Shown piece by piece: positions 14,073 through 23,147 of a stretch of 64,000 bases of DNA (position 1 is its first letter; each line of letters starts with the position of its first letter). The stretch spans positions 62,001-126,000 of the forward strand of contig JAFTQC010000032.1 of the NCBI GenBank assembly GCA_017462965.1. Reading direction: 5' to 3'. The notes under the pieces were generated by a model. It was not told the origin of the DNA, ran no database searches, and was given only the letters and a program-made list of their open reading frames with translations. A program made the translations under genes and the position numbers. Origin of the DNA: Clostridia bacterium. Lineage in GTDB: Bacteria; Bacillota; Clostridia; TANB77; UBA1234.

Positions 14073-14131
14073 AATTTGGAAATTGGGACGGAGTCATCAA
14101 GGTGGAGAGCGCGTCCCAATTTCCAAATTTT
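14071..14131. terminator. Bidirectional terminator of the GGGAC family
   Basis: Perfect 20-base arms: AAAATTTGGAAATTGGGACG (14071-14090) and its reverse complement at 14112-14131, loop 21 bases. The holA stop overlaps the left foot and the gpr stop the right foot, so one palindrome closes two convergent genes, with T-runs on both strands. Confidence 0.88.
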
Positions 14132-14949
14132 TATGAAAAGGCTTGGTTGATTCCTTCGGAGATTATTCGCGAAAGGTTTGTGACGATGTCGTCAATGGTG
14201 TTTGGAGTAACCATAAAGTTGTCGCTTACCATTGAGGGGATTCCTATGACAGTTGGAACGCCGACTGCTATAACGGGGATTCCAAGGGATTCTTGGTTTA
14301 TTGCGTTTCTATCGTTTTTTACGCCTGAACCGGGGGTTATACCGGTGTTGCTTATTTGTATGGTGTGACTAATTCTGTGCATCTCTTTGGCTGCTAAGGC
14401 ATCGACTACTATAATGGCGTTTGGAGAAGTTTTTTCTGATATTCCCCTAATGATATCGCGGGTATCTATGCCTGTTGTTCCAAGAACGCCAGGGATGATA
14501 GCGCTTATAGAAATAGTCGGTTTATCGAGAAGCTCGGGATGATATTTTACAAGATGCCTTGTGACAGTAAGATTTTCGATGACTTTTGGTCCAAGGGCGT
14601 CTGGCGTAATATTTGAATTTCCAAGACCAACGACAAGAACAGAAAAATTAGTATTTTGAGCGGGGATTAGTTTTTTTAGAGTGTTAGAGAGACTATTAAT
14701 AATTTTTTCGTCTATTCTTGCAACTTCATCGTTCATATATTGTGATTCAATTGTAATATATTCTCCAATAGGCCTGCCTAAGGCGTTTGAAGCTTCATCG
14801 GTATTTACTTTCACGGTTGTAATTTTAAATTCATTGTCAGAATCTTCGACTATCGTTTCAATTCCAGGGATTTCGTCGTCTAAATTCATTGCTTTTTTAT
14901 AAAATTCTCTATTTTCAATAGCTAAATCTGTACGTATTTTTGAATACAT
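14131..14949 (-). CDS. gpr: Germination protease GPR
   Basis: A 272-residue aspartic-like protease of family A25. GPR degrades the small acid-soluble proteins that coat spore DNA, when the spore germinates. The N-terminus SKIRTDLAIENREF contains the site where the pro-protein is processed and whose relatives occur in SASP substrates. The body has VVGLGNSNITPDALGPKVI, ISAIIPGVLGTTGIDTRDII and IVVDALAAKEMHRISHTIQI, all diagnostic, and GSGVKNDRNAI. Shorter than the B. subtilis enzyme (about 370) but the usual size for compact Clostridia. Start ATG follows GAGGTGAGTTT. Forespore expression would be expected; no clear sigma-G box was identified. Confidence 0.93.
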   Translation of the reverse strand: MYSKIRTDLAIENREFYKKAMNLDDEIPGIETIVEDSDNEFKITTVKVNTDEASNALGRPIGEYITIESQYMNDEVARIDEKIINSLSNTLKKLIPAQNTNFSVLVVGLGNSNITPDALGPKVIENLTVTRHLVKYHPELLDKPTISISAIIPGVLGTTGIDTRDIIRGISEKTSPNAIIVVDALAAKEMHRISHTIQISNTGITPGSGVKNDRNAINQESLGIPVIAVGVPTVIGIPSMVSDNFMVTPNTIDDIVTNLSRIISEGINQAFS

Positions 14950-15093: not shown

Positions 15094-18000
15094 ATGGGCA
15101 ATTTCCTAGAAAAAATAAAGAAAATGAAGAATGGGTTTAAAAAATTTTTAGACTTTATTATAGACAAAGTTAAGTTTTTTATGACTCAAATAGGTATGAT
15201 TGTTGCGATATTTATTATTATTGTGTTCTTTATTATAGCGCTAGCTGTTTTGATAAGAACAGCGGAGCATGCCTTGGGTCAGTGGCTTGACGCGGATTAT
15301 GCTGGTATTTCAACAGAAGGAGACTATGAATATTTAGTTTCTAGCTTGGGGTATGCAGGATATGATTCGCTAATAACTGAGAAAGTATGGCAAGAATTTA
15401 TGGCGTATGAATATGCTGTTTTGATGGATGTTGCTGAATACTTATATCAAGGTCAAGAAGAATATTATGGGGATCCAAACAATACTAAAGATGCGTATGG
15501 TCCATTTTCACAAAATTACTATAATGATAGTGATGAAACAGACTTAAGAGACCGTGAAAAAGGCGGTAGAAGTGATGAAAAAATTGCAGGTCCGGCGTAT
15601 TTACCATATTTGGAAGTAAAGGGTGAATATGATATTTCTAAAATGTCATTTAAAGATTGGCAAAAGTGTGTAATAGAAGGTCAAGGTTCAGCCAGATTTG
15701 GTATAACGAGTGTAGGCCAACTTACAGAGTCTCCGGGGATCGAAAATGGAAAAGTTTCTTATGGTGGAAATAGAGATGTAGTGCCACCAATGATTATGTA
15801 TGAATTCAAGATGAATCCATATGAACCAGATGCTCAAGGTTCACTTGTTCCATACATTACTGTGTTAAAAGAACAACTAAAATATTATTACTTTACTATT
15901 GGTGGAAGGGAAGAATTTAAAAATGGACCGTTAAATGATAAAAACGGTGGTGTTGTAATTGATACGAACAATATTGATCTTATCGATTTAATGGAAATAA
16001 GTACTTTGCTTAATATAGGAAATGGTTATTTGCCAAAAGCAAAGGCAGTGACAAATTATATTACACAAAATCCTGGAGCAGACCCAAGATCTAATTCGGA
16101 TGCATGGCCTGTTGCAGATTCCGCGTTTGAACAACAACTATATTATACAAATGATTATAGCTCTGTTGTTTATAAAACTGCGTTAGAAATAATAATTAAT
16201 AGATATTTACCTAAAGCTAGTATATTAACGGCTTGGTATTATGTAAAAGATACCGACTTGGCGGATCCAGAAACTCAAGGAAGAGAAACGTTAGATAATG
16301 GTGAATATAACAAATTTAATATTGATGATTTAATGAGAGATATTAAAGCTATATATAACTATTATTGTTGGGAAAATGCCGGTGAAACGTATGAAGATGA
16401 AGATATAAAAGCGATTTTGTATGATTCAGGAGATGGAACGGTCGTAAGAGAAGATGGATTGGGAAGCCCTGCTAAGAGATATGATTCTACTCAAAAGGTA
16501 GCTACGTCAAACAAAGACACATTTATTCATTTTGGACAAGCTGGCCTTGAAACGAATAAATTTGGTGTATTTAACGTGTATGAGCCAAAAGGCTCAAAAG
16601 GAAAACCGAAGGCGCCGGAAGCAATTACACAAGATCCAGAAGAAGCGACGGTTCCAGTTGTTACTGATTTAGTTTCTAAGCATGCATATTTCATGGATAG
16701 ATTTGGATTAGATGCCACATATGAATATACGTATTCGTATAGATATAAGGAAGAAATACCTCCTGAAACTACGCCTGCAACATATGTACAAGGCATTCCA
16801 ATAAAAAAACCAACAGTTCCTGCAGGACATACTTGCAACTTTGGAAGTAAAGGAGGTTATATAAGAATACCAGGCACTGCTTGTACAAGTTGTGCTAGTA
16901 AATTTGATGATTATGAAGGCTGGAAAATATGTGGAAAAGGAAAAACGAGTGCTGGAGTAACTGTATATCTTGTTCAAGATTTAAGAAATGTTACAGGACC
17001 ACTTACAGAAGTTAGTGCAAGTCTGTATATAACAGAAAAAGGTGTGAGTGATTGGATATATGACACTGCTCAAGATAGTGATGATATAGTTATACCTTAT
17101 GAAGCTACTAAAGATATAGAGCCTAGAGGCAAAATTGGTATAGATGAGAATGACAAGATTTCAAAATATATAAACGAAAAAGTTGTGAAAAAAGCAGAAG
17201 TAGATTTCGTTGAAAATACTAAAGCAATAAAAGATGCAGGGGAGTATACTATAGAACATCAAGATAAAAAATTTGTAAATTATATGCATTTGTATCCAGA
17301 ACTTACAGAAACGCCTGAAGGTGGACCTGCAGATGCGGTTGCAGCTTCAGTATTACAAGGAAATATATTTGATTATAAACATGAGTTACCTTTTTATGAT
17401 GCAGGAGCACAATCAGGAGATCCATCGTTGACTCCGGAAAAGGTTTTAGAGTTATTTAGTGGAGAAATATCTGATGAATCTAAGGGATTAAGTGGCACAA
17501 GTACAACGGGAGATACAGAGTTTTTCGGATTATTTTCGGATTTTGTTAATAGTAATAGTGAAAATCCTGATCCTAAACCAGACGAACCTAGTGGTGTAGT
17601 GGAGTATGAATTTTTAGGTATAGATAGTATAGATAGTTTGGATGTTAAAGGTTTTGCAGATAATAAACAAGATCCTAAATATAACGTTCCAAAATTTACA
17701 TCAGTTAGTTCACAATCATCGCCATTCAATGCGATTTATGCTATAGACGAATACCAATTAGCGCTTATGTTAGATATAAAGCAAAAGAGAATTTCAACAA
17801 TGATTGTTATGGACGTTGAAACTTGGGCAAAGAGTGCTACATATGATATAGAAATAATTCAAAACTCATTTGATTACACAAATTATAGATACGTAGTTCC
17901 ACATTCATACTTCAGCTTCGGTGTTAGAGTGTTCAAAATAGATGAAAAACCTTTATATAGAGTTGAATATTATAAAGATTATTTCTCGAAATATGAGAAT

Positions 18001-20922
18001 AGTGAACCGGGAATAAAAGAAGCTGATGTATTGAGCATGATGATGAAATGGGAAGAGTTTGCGAAGAGTGGAAACGATACTGCGTATGCGTTTATGAGAG
18101 ATTTGTATAAACTTATAATGTATATACGCCAAAAAGGTATTGATGAAGATAATATAGATGATTATATCTTGTCTACAGCATATAGTTATTTATATGTACC
18201 GGATACAATTTGGGAATTTAGAGAAGGTATATCGCAAGAAGCTTTCTGGACAGAGCGACTGGCAGCAGAAATGTATGGAGATGACGCAATGTCTAAAGAA
18301 GAATTAAAGAAGGTGCTTGTAAAGAAAGAAGAAATAGCATGGCAAATTTTAGATTATGATGAGTATGAAGAGTGCCAGTATGAAGAAGATGGAGAGGCGA
18401 AGACTAAGATTTATGCATTGTTCCCATTTGGAGCGCCTTATACAAGAACGTGGTTTATGGAAGATGCACTTGAAAAAGGTGTATTCTATGATGGAAACTA
18501 TACAGATGGACATGGTGGCGCAGACTGGACGTCAAGAGCTAAAATGTCGGCGATGTTATCTGGTAAAGATGAGCTAGCAAAGAGAATTTATGATTATGAA
18601 CTTCGTTCAAGAACTTTGAGAAATATAATGAACGGCACTGAAAAATATGAGGACAAAATTGAGAAAGCATTAGATTTCATCGAAGGAGGAACTGGTGGAA
18701 CTGCATATACAAAGGCGGAAAGTGAACTTAGAGCTGAACTTCGTGAATATGAAATAAGATCGCCTGAAGTTGCTGTTGCAGGTGGTGTAGTATATAAAGC
18801 GGACTACAATTGTTATAGTGGTTTTGCGGTAGGTGTTGATCACACGAAAGATGATGCTTCAACTCCAGCAAGAACATCATATGTTCATATGAGAAGATGG
18901 CCAGTGGTTCAAACAGGTGATATTGTTGGACCAGGTACGATACTTGGATATGAAGGAACAACAGGTAATAGTGGTGGAAATCATTTACACCAAAACGTAT
19001 GGGTTGGTAATGCAAAAGATAGTCCAGCGGAATATATGGGACCGATATTTGCACCTTTCTATAATCAAGAAAAGGTATTTGAAATTTCGCAAGAATTATC
19101 GAAGTATTCAGATAATGAAGAATTGATATTAGGAACAGATTATTATACGCTTATAAGAACAGTTTTGATGCAGGAGTTTGAAAATGGAAAAGCAAAATAT
19201 TCAGCAGAAATTGCTCCGGAAGGACAAGCGACGTATTTAAAATCAGCATCATTTGTAATGCTTGAAGGAAATGATGGGGAAACTCATGAATATATAGATT
19301 TTTACGGTGCAAGCACAACGTTTGATGAATTAGGAAATCCTGTTGGCGGAGCAACTGGAGTAGTAAGTGGTGATAAGATAATTGTTAAAGTAGGAATTAC
19401 TTCTCCTGAATATTATCTGTGTGGATATAAAACAGAAGTTATAAGAAATGCTACAGCAAGTGACGATTCTTTATCTGGAGATGATTTCGCTTCATCAAAT
19501 GGAGTTACGCTTTTAAGAGTAATTTCAAAAGAAAAAATAGATGATTTTTCTGAAGAAGTATTGGCTAATTCAATACAAGTTGAGACTGACGTGGATATAA
19601 CAAGTTCTACAAGGGTTATATGGGGAAATAATGTTCCATTTTCTCCGATTGTGGCTGATATGGAGGATGCTATTGATATAACGTCTCTGAATGTAGAAAA
19701 AAGCTTCAAGGCTTCGGAACATAAAAGTGAATATGATGGAAAACCTAATGATCCTCCTAAAAAAGAGGAAGGATATGATGATGTAAAGGCTACAAAAGAT
19801 TTCTTTGATGCTGGTAAGGTTGAAGATAGACTTAAAGTACCTGCTTTGTATTTAATACATATGTCAGACTTAGAGTCAGAATATTCAATTCCGTTTTATG
19901 AAGGACCAGTATCAGTAGAACATCAAAATTCAGGTATAGTACTTGGATATTCTGGTTCGATAAGTGGAGATTTATTAAAATTCCAACAAGCGCTTATCTC
20001 AAATGGTTTAGATCCAGATAGAACAATAACTCCGAATGGTGTGTTTGATGAAAATACAAAAAATATTATAAAACAAAATGTTACTTCTATGGTTTCAAGT
20101 ACATCTATCAATAATGGTGCTGTCGGAGAATATCCTGGTCATAGCATAGAAGGTATGGTTCGTTGGAATGCTACTGTTACATGGGGAAGTGTTGATGAGT
20201 CGATAAAAGTTGGTCGCGAGGCAACAATGCAAGCAGGAATGATGGTACCTAATGTTACTTCGTCGTTTGTGGCAGGTGTTGCATCTTGTGAATCAAGCTT
20301 TATACCAACAAATGAATCAAATCAATTTTGCGGTGGTGCAGATGCGGTGTCATGGCTTACTCAACCAGTATTCCCTGATGAAACATCAACTGCAGATACG
20401 GGAAATATTACAATTGTTTATAGAGGTGTGAAGAGAACAATCAGAAGAGCACAAGGGTTAATGCAACTTGCACCAGGAGTAGGCTTCCCAAGAGCTAGAG
20501 CAAAAGTTGGCGACGATATCGATCAAATCGTTTCACAAGTAAGAACTCCGGCTACTAATGCAATACTAGGTGCTGAGTATTTATCAGAAAACATAGTATC
20601 TTTGATAGGAAATGAAACACATTTTAATCGTTTAAAGGAACTAGTTAATTCAAATCCAGCGTTTGCTGCAATGACAGCAGATTGTGGAATTTCAGGCATG
20701 GAACTTGCACTTTCAGGATGTTCGGCATACATGTATAATAAAGGTCCGGGTAATGGAAATACAGAAAGAATTATAGAAGCAATGGGGACTATCATGTATG
20801 ATCCTGTAGAGAAGCAAGCGTATTATCCAGGTCTAGCTCCTGGTGCTAAAGATGAGGAACACGGATATTCACATAAGGTTATAACATTTATGGTTAGAAA
20901 TGGTCCAAAAATGGATAAATAA
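15094..20922 (+). CDS. Giant membrane-anchored wall hydrolase, M23 plus lytic transglycosylase
   Basis: A 1942-residue protein. A basic N-terminus precedes one membrane segment (about residues 33-54); the rest is probably extracellular. About 1050 residues of unrecognised sequence follow, including a four-cysteine patch near 581-620. An M23 endopeptidase is split: HGGAD (metal H and D) near 1140-1144, then an insertion of about 70 residues, then VAGGVVYKADY, SYVHMRRWPVV and GNHLH near 1296-1299. Near 1628-1665 is a peptidoglycan-binding-like repeat. The C-terminus is an SLT-type transglycosylase with the catalytic E of CESSF near 1733, RAQGLMQLAPG near 1785 and YNKGPGN. Both sites look intact. 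M23 cuts stem peptides and SLT cuts glycan. Such pairs occur in conjugation and phage proteins, but no secretion genes are nearby. Two exported partners follow. Confidence 0.8.
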   Translation: MGNFLEKIKKMKNGFKKFLDFIIDKVKFFMTQIGMIVAIFIIIVFFIIALAVLIRTAEHALGQWLDADYAGISTEGDYEYLVSSLGYAGYDSLITEKVWQEFMAYEYAVLMDVAEYLYQGQEEYYGDPNNTKDAYGPFSQNYYNDSDETDLRDREKGGRSDEKIAGPAYLPYLEVKGEYDISKMSFKDWQKCVIEGQGSARFGITSVGQLTESPGIENGKVSYGGNRDVVPPMIMYEFKMNPYEPDAQGSLVPYITVLKEQLKYYYFTIGGREEFKNGPLNDKNGGVVIDTNNIDLIDLMEISTLLNIGNGYLPKAKAVTNYITQNPGADPRSNSDAWPVADSAFEQQLYYTNDYSSVVYKTALEIIINRYLPKASILTAWYYVKDTDLADPETQGRETLDNGEYNKFNIDDLMRDIKAIYNYYCWENAGETYEDEDIKAILYDSGDGTVVREDGLGSPAKRYDSTQKVATSNKDTFIHFGQAGLETNKFGVFNVYEPKGSKGKPKAPEAITQDPEEATVPVVTDLVSKHAYFMDRFGLDATYEYTYSYRYKEEIPPETTPATYVQGIPIKKPTVPAGHTCNFGSKGGYIRIPGTACTSCASKFDDYEGWKICGKGKTSAGVTVYLVQDLRNVTGPLTEVSASLYITEKGVSDWIYDTAQDSDDIVIPYEATKDIEPRGKIGIDENDKISKYINEKVVKKAEVDFVENTKAIKDAGEYTIEHQDKKFVNYMHLYPELTETPEGGPADAVAASVLQGNIFDYKHELPFYDAGAQSGDPSLTPEKVLELFSGEISDESKGLSGTSTTGDTEFFGLFSDFVNSNSENPDPKPDEPSGVVEYEFLGIDSIDSLDVKGFADNKQDPKYNVPKFTSVSSQSSPFNAIYAIDEYQLALMLDIKQKRISTMIVMDVETWAKSATYDIEIIQNSFDYTNYRYVVPHSYFSFGVRVFKIDEKPLYRVEYYKDYFSKYENSEPGIKEADVLSMMMKWEEFAKSGNDTAYAFMRDLYKLIMYIRQKGIDEDNIDDYILSTAYSYLYVPDTIWEFREGISQEAFWTERLAAEMYGDDAMSKEELKKVLVKKEEIAWQILDYDEYEECQYEEDGEAKTKIYALFPFGAPYTRTWFMEDALEKGVFYDGNYTDGHGGADWTSRAKMSAMLSGKDELAKRIYDYELRSRTLRNIMNGTEKYEDKIEKALDFIEGGTGGTAYTKAESELRAELREYEIRSPEVAVAGGVVYKADYNCYSGFAVGVDHTKDDASTPARTSYVHMRRWPVVQTGDIVGPGTILGYEGTTGNSGGNHLHQNVWVGNAKDSPAEYMGPIFAPFYNQEKVFEISQELSKYSDNEELILGTDYYTLIRTVLMQEFENGKAKYSAEIAPEGQATYLKSASFVMLEGNDGETHEYIDFYGASTTFDELGNPVGGATGVVSGDKIIVKVGITSPEYYLCGYKTEVIRNATASDDSLSGDDFASSNGVTLLRVISKEKIDDFSEEVLANSIQVETDVDITSSTRVIWGNNVPFSPIVADMEDAIDITSLNVEKSFKASEHKSEYDGKPNDPPKKEEGYDDVKATKDFFDAGKVEDRLKVPALYLIHMSDLESEYSIPFYEGPVSVEHQNSGIVLGYSGSISGDLLKFQQALISNGLDPDRTITPNGVFDENTKNIIKQNVTSMVSSTSINNGAVGEYPGHSIEGMVRWNATVTWGSVDESIKVGREATMQAGMMVPNVTSSFVAGVASCESSFIPTNESNQFCGGADAVSWLTQPVFPDETSTADTGNITIVYRGVKRTIRRAQGLMQLAPGVGFPRARAKVGDDIDQIVSQVRTPATNAILGAEYLSENIVSLIGNETHFNRLKELVNSNPAFAAMTADCGISGMELALSGCSAYMYNKGPGNGNTERIIEAMGTIMYDPVEKQAYYPGLAPGAKDEEHGYSHKVITFMVRNGPKMDK

Positions 20923-20935
20923 TAAAATTAGTGGA

Positions 20936-20976
20936 TAAAACTTGGAAATTGGGGCGGTCCCTTTTTCCAAGTTTTA
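20936..20976 (+). terminator. GGGAC-family hairpin after the giant gene
   Basis: TAAAACTTGGAAA (20936-20948) pairs perfectly with TTTCCAAGTTTTA (20964-20976); loop TTGGGGCGGTCCCTT is the family core. It may attenuate transcription into the next two genes. Confidence 0.7.
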
Positions 20977-21024
20977 TACCAATAGTTTATATTTGAAAGT
21001 ATGCGAATGAAGGGAGAAGCGCTT

Positions 21025-21897
21025 ATGGAAGGTAGAGAGTTAAAACCTCAAGTAAAGATATTGCTGATAATTATACTTATAATACTTGGTGCGATTGTAA
21101 TTGAAAATGTTATAAATTTGTTTTTTAATGTAACGGAAGAAATTAAGACTAAACATGAAATAAAAAAAGAACAAGAAATATATATGTCGACTCCTGAATA
21201 CGCAGAAGAACAAAAGATAGAGGCATGTGTTAAAACGGCAATCGAATACTTGAGTTCAGGTGATTATGAAGCTTTATATAATGTTATAGATCCTGATTAT
21301 AAAGAGTATATGCAAATAGATTCTGTTGATAAATTTAAGGAAGTTTTGGCTACATATATGAATGGTGCTGATTCGGTAAAATTATTAGATTATGGAAAAC
21401 AAAATGATAGATACCTTTGCGATGTTATTTTTACATCAGGAGACAATGTTTTTAGTAAGAGATTGCTAGTAAAACAGCTTGAAAATGAAGAGTTTTACAT
21501 TATTTTAGATGATATATACAATATAGAAAAATTTAATGGAAGATTCAGAGTTTTTGATGATACGATTGATTACAATTTGGTTTATAGGGTAAATAGAGGC
21601 TCGACAAACACATATGTAATGGATGTTACAAATTATACTAATAAAGACATGGTTGGCTCATATAAAAACACATATTTGATGAAAACTGATAGAAAAACGT
21701 ATGAACCACAAAATAAAGAAGAACTTGAAAATATAACTATTCCTGCCGGTGGAACAGTGAGAGTATATTTTACAATAAGTAATGGTAGCGTGAATTCATA
21801 TACATTCCCAGATGATATGTTATATTTGAATTTTGATTTTGCGGATGGAACTAGAAGAAGTGACAACATGATATTACAATGGGAATATTGGGAATAG
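21025..21897 (+). CDS. Single-pass envelope protein, partner A
   Basis: A 290-residue protein with a short cytoplasmic N-terminus, one membrane segment (ILLIIILIILGAIVIENVIN), a charged coil and an extracellular domain. Residues about 70-160 (KIEACVKTAIEYLSSGDYEA through LLVKQLENEEFYIILDDIY) have the helix-strand order of NTF2-like or DUF4878-type domains; the C-terminal 120 residues look immunoglobulin-like (VYRVNRGSTNTYVMDVTNYT, ITIPAGGTVRVYFTISNGS). I start at MEGRELKP, since GGGAG precedes it and the upstream ATG at 21001 has none. The same two-domain plan occurs in the next gene. No family name is certain; it probably assists the giant hydrolase. Confidence 0.65.
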   Translation: MEGRELKPQVKILLIIILIILGAIVIENVINLFFNVTEEIKTKHEIKKEQEIYMSTPEYAEEQKIEACVKTAIEYLSSGDYEALYNVIDPDYKEYMQIDSVDKFKEVLATYMNGADSVKLLDYGKQNDRYLCDVIFTSGDNVFSKRLLVKQLENEEFYIILDDIYNIEKFNGRFRVFDDTIDYNLVYRVNRGSTNTYVMDVTNYTNKDMVGSYKNTYLMKTDRKTYEPQNKEELENITIPAGGTVRVYFTISNGSVNSYTFPDDMLYLNFDFADGTRRSDNMILQWEYWE

Positions 21898-21910
21898 GAG
21901 GTGCAACATT

Positions 21911-22690
21911 ATGAAAAACATGGCAAAAAAGTTTTTGGCAGTATGCTTTACCGCCCTTTGTGTTGTGCTATTTTTGATATACACGCTGAAGGATTTTAAT
22001 GAAGAAAAGAGCAGCGGAATACGCAGTATGATAGGAGAAGAGTTTGGTGGAGTTACATCGTTATCTGTTAGAGAAAACGTTATTTTGACAAATGCTGTTG
22101 AACTGTATTTGCAAAGTTTAAGAAGTGGTGATTTTGATAAGGCTTATGGATATATTTCTGCTCAATACAAAGAAATTGTTCCTAAAGATGTTTATATTCA
22201 AAAAATGAATGAAATAGGTTTAGAAAACTTTAAAACTTCTGGTTTATTGGAAATTAGGCAAGCAACAACTAATATGTTTATTGTACAATTTGATCTAGCA
22301 AATGGCTTAAAACAAAAAATTTTGCTTATATTAGATGATAAAAACTATTATATTGTACCTGAACCATTCCTAGAATATAGGGTAGTTGATGATGGAATAA
22401 AGAAGGATGGTATCACATATCATTTGAATGGTTATGAGATTGATTTGGAAAGATGCGTATTTGATTTTACGATAACAAATGAATCGAATGATGAAGTTAA
22501 AATTGTTGATGCACAAATGTTGTATGAGACGGGTGGATCTTCAAAAGCTGTAAATAGTGAATTTGTGATTCCGGCGAAGGAGACAAAAAATGTTTCTATA
22601 GAAGTTGAAACTTATCTTGATTTCCCGGCTGGTTTTAAATTAACAAGGCAAGATGGCGAAAAACAGAGAATATATACCTTTGATTTATAA
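21911..22690 (+). CDS. Single-pass envelope protein, partner B
   Basis: A 259-residue protein resembling the preceding gene: N-terminal anchor (KKFLAVCFTALCVVLFLIYT), an NTF2-like region (ILTNAVELYLQSLRSGDFDK ... ILLILDDKNYYIVPEPF) and a C-terminal beta domain (FDFTITNESNDEVKIVDAQM ... ETKNVSIEVETYLDFPAGF). The shared AVELYLQSLRSGDFDKAYG and AIEYLSSGDYEALYN helices argue for an ancient duplication. It begins 13 bases after partner A behind AGGAGGTGC, so the two are translated together. A strong terminator follows. Function unknown; a role in positioning or gating the giant hydrolase is inference from the operon. Confidence 0.65.
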   Translation: MKNMAKKFLAVCFTALCVVLFLIYTLKDFNEEKSSGIRSMIGEEFGGVTSLSVRENVILTNAVELYLQSLRSGDFDKAYGYISAQYKEIVPKDVYIQKMNEIGLENFKTSGLLEIRQATTNMFIVQFDLANGLKQKILLILDDKNYYIVPEPFLEYRVVDDGIKKDGITYHLNGYEIDLERCVFDFTITNESNDEVKIVDAQMLYETGGSSKAVNSEFVIPAKETKNVSIEVETYLDFPAGFKLTRQDGEKQRIYTFDL

Positions 22691-22857: not shown

Positions 22858-23112
22858 ATGGATAAGAGTCAAATCATAAAAGAATATCAAACTCATGAAG
22901 GCGACACTGGTTCACCAGAAGTTCAAATCGCTTTATTAACAAACAGAATTTCTGAATTAACAGAGCATTTGAAAGTTCATAAAAAAGACAATCATTCAAG
23001 AAGAGGTCTTTTCAAAATGGTTGGACAAAGAAGAGGCTTACTTAAATATCTTGAGAAGACAGATGTTGAAAGATATCGTTCTTTAATCGAGAGATTAGGT
23101 TTGAGAAAATAA
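22858..23112 (+). CDS. rpsO: 30S ribosomal protein S15
   Basis: An 84-residue S15. The body [42 protein letters not shown] and the LRK end are standard; it lacks the usual four or five N-terminal residues. S15 binds 16S rRNA early in assembly of the small-subunit platform. It is followed by its own terminator and then pnp, the order conserved from E. coli to Bacillus. Start ATG follows TAGGAGG. Confidence 0.97.
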
Positions 23113-23118
23113 TTAAAT

Positions 23119-23147
23119 TGAGGGGTAATGATGTTACCCCTCTTTTT
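23119..23147 (+). terminator. Rho-independent terminator after rpsO
   Basis: GAGGGGTAA pairs with TTACCCCTC around TGATG, followed by five T. Confidence 0.92.

Follow-up and report, generated by a model that had tools for sequence, protein, structure and literature searches.

A three-gene wall hydrolase operon as the probable detached VirB1/VirB8-like module of an order-specific T4SS in Clostridia

A three-gene operon in the window (the whole stretch of DNA analyzed in this study, 64,000 nucleotides long) probably represents the VirB1/VirB8-like wall module, now detached, of a chromosomally fixed T4SS that is specific to an order of uncultured Clostridia and encoded elsewhere in the genome. 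The operon encodes a giant single-pass wall hydrolase and two smaller single-pass proteins with an NTF2-like and an Ig-like domain. We propose a detached module because the operon supplies exactly the wall parts that are missing from the T4SS clusters of the window's family (family f1). The operon looked like an orphan since the wall module of this family sits away from the other T4SS genes. From homology and complementarity we infer that module and T4SS work together; the VirB1 and VirB8 roles are likewise proposed. All genomes are draft assemblies; the one containing the window has a size of 2.07 Mb in 76 contigs.

Organization of the operon and its proteins

The three open reading frames on the plus strand encode proteins of 1942, 298 and 259 aa, as the initial annotation had described, and are separated by gaps of 78 and 13 bp. 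Each protein has one N-terminal transmembrane (TM) helix. The features of the operon and its direct neighbors are as follows.

14131 to 14949, minus strand: gpr germination protease, divergent neighbor, outside the system (Pfam, E 6.4e-74)
15094 to 20922, plus strand: giant single-pass wall hydrolase, proposed to be VirB1-like (ORF; conserved in 13/13 f1 genomes)
15199 to 15255, plus strand: TM helix of the giant, residues 36-54 (hydropathy; one N-terminal TM helix in 10/10 aligned homologues)
15256 to 18405, plus strand: ectodomain of about 1050 residues, conserved in islands (alignment)
18406 to 19038, plus strand: M23 endopeptidase domain in which an insertion separates H1140xxxD from the remainder (Pfam, E 2.8e-10; motifs)
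20248 to 20604, plus strand: SLT transglycosylase-like domain, residues 1719-1837 (Pfam, E 1.2e-3, below the cut-off; ESSF and GLMQL motifs)
21001 to 21897, plus strand: single-pass NTF2+Ig protein 1, 298 aa, proposed to be VirB8-like (AF2, fold matches, homology to T4SS-cluster proteins)
21211 to 21513, plus strand: NTF2-like domain of protein 1 (AF2)
21532 to 21885, plus strand: Ig-like domain of protein 1 (AF2)
21911 to 22690, plus strand: single-pass NTF2+Ig protein 2, 259 aa, paralogue of protein 1 (profile comparison)
22858 to 23112, plus strand: 84-aa ORF, read by eye as rpsO (S15) (ORF list)

The upstream flank consists of ruvC, holA and the divergent gpr. Downstream, rpsO is followed by a pnp-like ORF (read from the sequence), again a core-chromosome flank, and a terminator-like site is found at 23120.

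The giant combines an N-terminal anchor with putative extracellular wall hydrolase domains, the architecture expected of a VirB1-type protein. The membrane anchor and the M23 domain named in the initial annotation were both recovered, the latter with the metal/catalytic motifs HxxxD (H1140) and HLH. The SLT domain of that annotation retains its two motifs but scores below the Pfam cut-off, and the claimed peptidoglycan-binding repeat has no Pfam match in the window protein and a weak one (E 0.013) in the homologue of genome G002. The motifs thus present predict a wall hydrolase activity for M23 and SLT. Conservation of the ectodomain is concentrated in islands at residues ~70-130, ~236-266, ~364-425 and ~872-1098 of the giant. 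A PDB sequence search with the N-terminus gave no match, and the structure prediction that had been suggested for this part (AF2 on residues 1-1098, using an alignment with 10 homologues) reached a pLDDT of 32, from which no fold is claimed.

Homologues of the module are present in 13 out of 13 f1 genomes, which excludes chance ORFs. The giants of this family share the TM helix, the ectodomain islands and M23, while the C-terminal enzyme differs and can be SLT, glucosaminidase with CHAP, NlpC/CHAP, or none that is recognized. The giant of G002 (L033, 5467-11664) has Asp where the others have His as first metal ligand of M23, and this copy may be inactive. The gpr gene of the same genome is split in two frames. 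In the drafts of G003 and G004 the giant gene itself is split by frame breaks (L034:7853-13182, L035:9048-15012), either through sequencing error or in reality. The profile of the giant's N-terminal part has no match among 178 further genomes of the order or among the remaining 387 of a class-wide sample.

The two small proteins are paralogous single-pass proteins, as initially annotated (hhalign, 98.7% to each other). AF2 predicts a TM helix, an NTF2-like domain (residues 71-171) and an Ig-like domain (178-295) for protein 1 with a mean pLDDT of 82, which agrees with the earlier reading of NTF2-like and beta domains. The matches of the NTF2 domain have VIA-align Z-scores of 8.5-9.5 with ~92-99 residues aligned at an rmsd of ~3 (Z ~9 for the NTF2 domain of PBP2a), and protein 1 matches YjhA with a Z-score of 9.9. 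Protein 1 is therefore predicted to have the single TM helix and extracellular NTF2-like domain of a VirB8 protein. No VirB8 or TcpC chain is among the fold matches listed for it, and a sequence-profile search of the small proteins revealed no VirB8, TcpC, TraM or PrgL homologue. Since homology to VirB8 was not detected, 'VirB8-like' is used here as a statement on role and fold.

Core genes flank the operon in the f1 genomes seen. It adjoins gpr in g1-g3, sometimes co-directionally, while in G011 (genus g4) the giant is located beside obgE, with nusG, rplK and rplA further along. The NTF2 genes of f1 sit at the giant's operon; the exceptions are a single unlinked copy in each of three g4 genomes and, in G001, a weak fragment. 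In G006, two NTF2 genes flank rpsO-pnp, one on each side. Among the f1 loci surveyed, none showed a T4SS gene close to the operon, and the inheritance of the module looks vertical.

The T4SS of the order and its wall proteins

The T4SS cluster encodes several VirB2-like proteins of ~115 aa (TrbC/VirB2, E 3e-11; T4SS_pilin, E 1e-10), a PrgI/VirB3-like protein (PrgI, E 3e-5), and a VirB4 that is split into an N-terminal VirB4-like gene and VirB4 (TraG P-loop, E 2e-15). It also encodes large polytopic proteins, labelled VirB6-like by topology and position. The VirB2 arrays suggest a pilus. In the window's genome, contig G000:C23 carries the VirB2-like array, VirB3/PrgI, the split VirB4 and several VirB6-like genes, with a VirD4-like ATPase on G000:C50. 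A VirD4-family protein (E <= 1e-34) is encoded in 55 of 57 genomes, usually distant from virB4. HMMs built from the f3 clusters confirmed the VirB2-like arrays and several VirB6-like genes in f1. These HMM results were used for protein identity because the cluster group k0, formed by single linkage, mixes VirB2-like proteins, VirB6-like proteins and giants.

Searching for VirB4 with the generic AAA_10 family lacked specificity but led to the distinction of two VirB4 types. The type encoded in the T4SS cluster occurs in 15 out of 18 genomes of the order versus none of 373 other genomes of the class (E <= 1e-120). Type-2 VirB4 was confirmed in nine of the 13 f1 genomes, with G002, G004 and G010 outside the specific-profile search; a search of G006 (98% complete) found none. 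In a tree of 36 VirB4 proteins, f1 and f5 come out as a single group each (100/100), and f3 as one with weak support. The neighbors of the cluster are core genes, such as rsmG and parA in an f3 genome and ftsX and pcsB in an f1 genome. Judged by sequence, the T4SS is specific to the order, fixed in the chromosome and vertically inherited, and not mobile.

The nine T4SS clusters found in f1 contain VirB2-, VirB3-, VirB4- and VirB6-like genes, and none of them contains an NTF2 gene. By contrast, NTF2 genes are present in 17 of 20 clusters of the other families that were chosen by virB4 alone; their distance to virB4 is 3.6-13.7 kb over all loci seen. The three remaining clusters are L186, truncated by a contig end, L192, truncated by the edge of the region analyzed, and that of G022 (f3), where an NTF2-giant-NTF2 block lies on a different contig from virB4. 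Across 57 genomes, an NTF2 match is missing in nine. In the f3 and f5 clusters, the VirB6-like gene is followed by genes for a single-pass protein of ~300 aa and a giant that is also single-pass, and often by one more gene for a single-pass protein. The f4 order (VirB6-giant-x-NTF2-NTF2) is close to that of the window.

Both small proteins of the window are homologous to proteins of these clusters. With hhalign, comparing ectodomains only, they match the f3 and f5 cluster proteins at 96.9-98.6% (E 1.7e-10 to 6e-16), specifically at 98.6% (f3 group, E 6e-16) and 98.0% (f5 group, E 1.5e-13) for protein 1, and at 98.1% (f3) and 96.9% (f5) for protein 2. Column-shuffled decoys and unrelated families gave at most ~4%, except for the group k12 (short single-pass proteins of f5 clusters) with 65-94%, which is probably also NTF2-like. 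Hmmsearch agrees with this homology (E down to 7.5e-15). The suggestion in the initial annotation of a dedicated wall-piercing machine is supported. Its remark that no conjugation genes are near holds at the window and fails in other families of the order, where the small-protein homologues and an anchored giant lie a few kb from virB4.

In most clusters outside f1, a single-pass protein of 0.7-1.7 kaa adjoins the NTF2 genes; L185 has NTF2 genes without an adjoining giant. Among 14 scanned giants of other families we found NlpC/P60 (five), M23 (four), phage-type lysozyme, M15 and CHAP (three each), and amidase or glucosaminidase in others; some giants have no recognized hydrolase domain. One f3 giant of 1480 aa (L175:12947-17389) unites a TM anchor, a beta-lactamase-like domain and CHAP, and also matches GDSL lipase weakly. 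Of the f1 giant, only the M23 domain aligns with the giants of f4 (98.0%) and f2; for its N-terminal ~1050 residues, no homology to giants of other families was detected. The giants are therefore equated by their position, their architecture and their partners. The giants of other families are encoded within the T4SS locus. As the f1 giant lies outside it, we call this protein VirB1-like by role and do not file it as VirB1.

Proposed function and alternative explanations

In the proposed mechanism, the giant would be anchored in the membrane and cut peptidoglycan locally, with M23 cutting the peptides and SLT the glycan. As VirB8 subunits do in Gram-positive systems, the two NTF2-Ig proteins would surround and line the channel, where they would hold and position the hydrolase. 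Giant and NTF2-Ig proteins would together form a passage for the T4SS channel or pilus across the thick wall. More tentatively, and with somewhat less weight than we would give an even chance, the order, whose members have small genomes, may depend for contact with other cells on a vertically inherited pilin-array T4SS of a similar kind to that of Patescibacteria. From this system, f1 would have split off the module into a scaffold-hydrolase of ~2000 residues whose ~1050-residue ectodomain would add a novel structural element to the wall conduit.

An unlikely, yet the most serious, alternative is that the module derives from a T4SS and now serves ordinary wall remodelling in f1 (growth or division) independently of it. 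The module's presence in all 13 f1 genomes, physically apart and among core genes, would fit such a co-option, as would the f1-specific N-terminal part of the giant and G006, which keeps the operon without a detectable type-2 VirB4. However, the partner proteins have been kept together with the giant, and nine f1 genomes keep a T4SS cluster that lacks exactly these parts, so that co-option would leave the T4SS without a wall module. A remnant of an integrated conjugative element or a phage lysis/tail module is very improbable. Similar hydrolase domains do occur in conjugation systems and phage tails, but the PHROG matches of the giant are limited to the M23 domain, apart from one row at chance level, and in place of the sporadic occurrence and variable non-core sites of an ICE we found core-gene flanks in the genomes seen and an order-specific VirB4 whose groups follow the families. 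Given the core-gene neighborhoods and the apparently vertical inheritance, the operon is very probably not a conjugation remnant. A location beside VirB4/VirD4 in relatives, which the initial annotation would have read as the sign of such a remnant, is largely what the other families show, but the system concerned is a fixed T4SS.

Least probable of all is a wall machine for sporulation or engulfment, as the gpr neighbor in g1-g3 might suggest; the spore-related machine of the initial annotation is not supported. The giant does not co-occur with core spore genes: all four g4 genomes keep it, and none of the four has gpr or spoIIP, which largely refutes this reading already. A frame break disrupts spoIIP, but not the giant, in the genome of the window and in its sister. 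In f3 and f5 genomes that retain both gpr and spoIIP, the counterparts of the operon's genes belong to the T4SS cluster. The spoIIP gene is split at about the same place in G000:C21:50458-51163 and G005:C13:8180-8939, and the G044 copy is also split. The frame break suggests sporulation decay.

Comparison with known systems and further loci

Gram-positive VirB1-type hydrolases are membrane-anchored and interact with VirB8 (PMC12857230, PMC11753425), and LytM and SLT are among their known domains (PMC12857230). Like PrgK (pCF10), TraG (pIP501) and Orf14 (Tn916), the giant is membrane-anchored with more than one extracellular wall hydrolase domain. It differs from them in its far larger size (1942 aa), owing to the ~1050-residue ectodomain, in a C-terminal enzyme that is swapped between relatives, and in being unlinked to T4SS genes, chromosomal and family-wide. 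VirB8-type NTF2 proteins of Gram-positive bacteria assemble into multimers, which bind VirB1 and constitute the wall complex (PMC11753425, PMC12857230). The small proteins resemble TcpC, OrfG, Orf13, TraM and PrgL in their N-terminal TM helix and extracellular NTF2-like domain and in being encoded with a wall hydrolase, but their second domain is Ig-like and not a second NTF2 domain. The closest solved folds listed for protein 1 are the NTF2 domains of PBP2a/PBP3 and the YjhA-type Ig domain, not VirB8.

The closest comparison for the system of this order is the T4SS of Patescibacteria (TM7x, Southlakia), which is likewise chromosomal and clade-wide, with arrays of VirB2-like pilins, a VirB4-N (TrsD-like) gene next to VirB4 and hydrolases near virB4 or dispersed; in one strain it is essential for epibiotic growth (PMC12102498). 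Here, the host is instead an order of Clostridia, the VirB6-like paralogues are large, and NTF2+Ig subunits are found in most genomes of the order, whereas VirB8 is scarcely detected in Patescibacteria. A recent review states that no Gram-positive T4SS other than that of Patescibacteria has VirB2 pilins (PMC12857230). An order of Clostridia with a chromosomally fixed VirB2-array T4SS would be a second case, of which we found no account in the open-licence literature, to which our search was limited. Such a case would make testable what role a fixed system has (cell contact, protein delivery, DNA exchange) and by what means a thick wall is crossed by a T4SS. The apparent orphan would also be explained: searches restricted to the surroundings of virB4 miss the f1 wall module.

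The rvh T4SS of Rickettsia is a diderm system with VirB7/9/10, and the likeness to it is a resemblance alone. It has several VirB6-like and VirB2-like paralogues, and its genes are dispersed (PMC2653234, PMC12102498). Several f1 T4SS clusters (L169, L170, L171, L173, L174, L254) contain at least three tandem large VirB6-like proteins, some of which match T4SS_pilin weakly, recalling the expanded VirB6 set of Rickettsia.

A second fixed chromosomal cluster lies beside gyrA. In G000:C12:24001-44000 (L091) it encodes a split VirB4-like ATPase and CpaE/MinD-like, CpaF/T2SSE and TadB/T2SSF-like proteins, and it is an unusual T4SS/Tad-like hybrid with relatives in L092, L094-L097 and L099-L102. The f3 version is located between gyrB and gyrA, without T2SSE/T2SSF. 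We considered the giant as part of this VirB4-CpaE-CpaF-TadB cluster and dropped the link, as TadB-like genes occur in f2, f4 and f5 without an f1-type giant and the cluster of the window's genome has no NTF2 gene. L093 (G005:C16:188001-202644) and L104 (G041:C2:94001-114000) carry a further VirB4-like gene set as a block shared across families, probably a mobile conjugative element. Finally, L205:77-7636 (G006:C24) encodes a single-pass protein of 2519 aa with BspA-type leucine-rich repeats and an Ig domain, ~3.4 kb from a VirD4-like gene, which is a probable surface adhesin.
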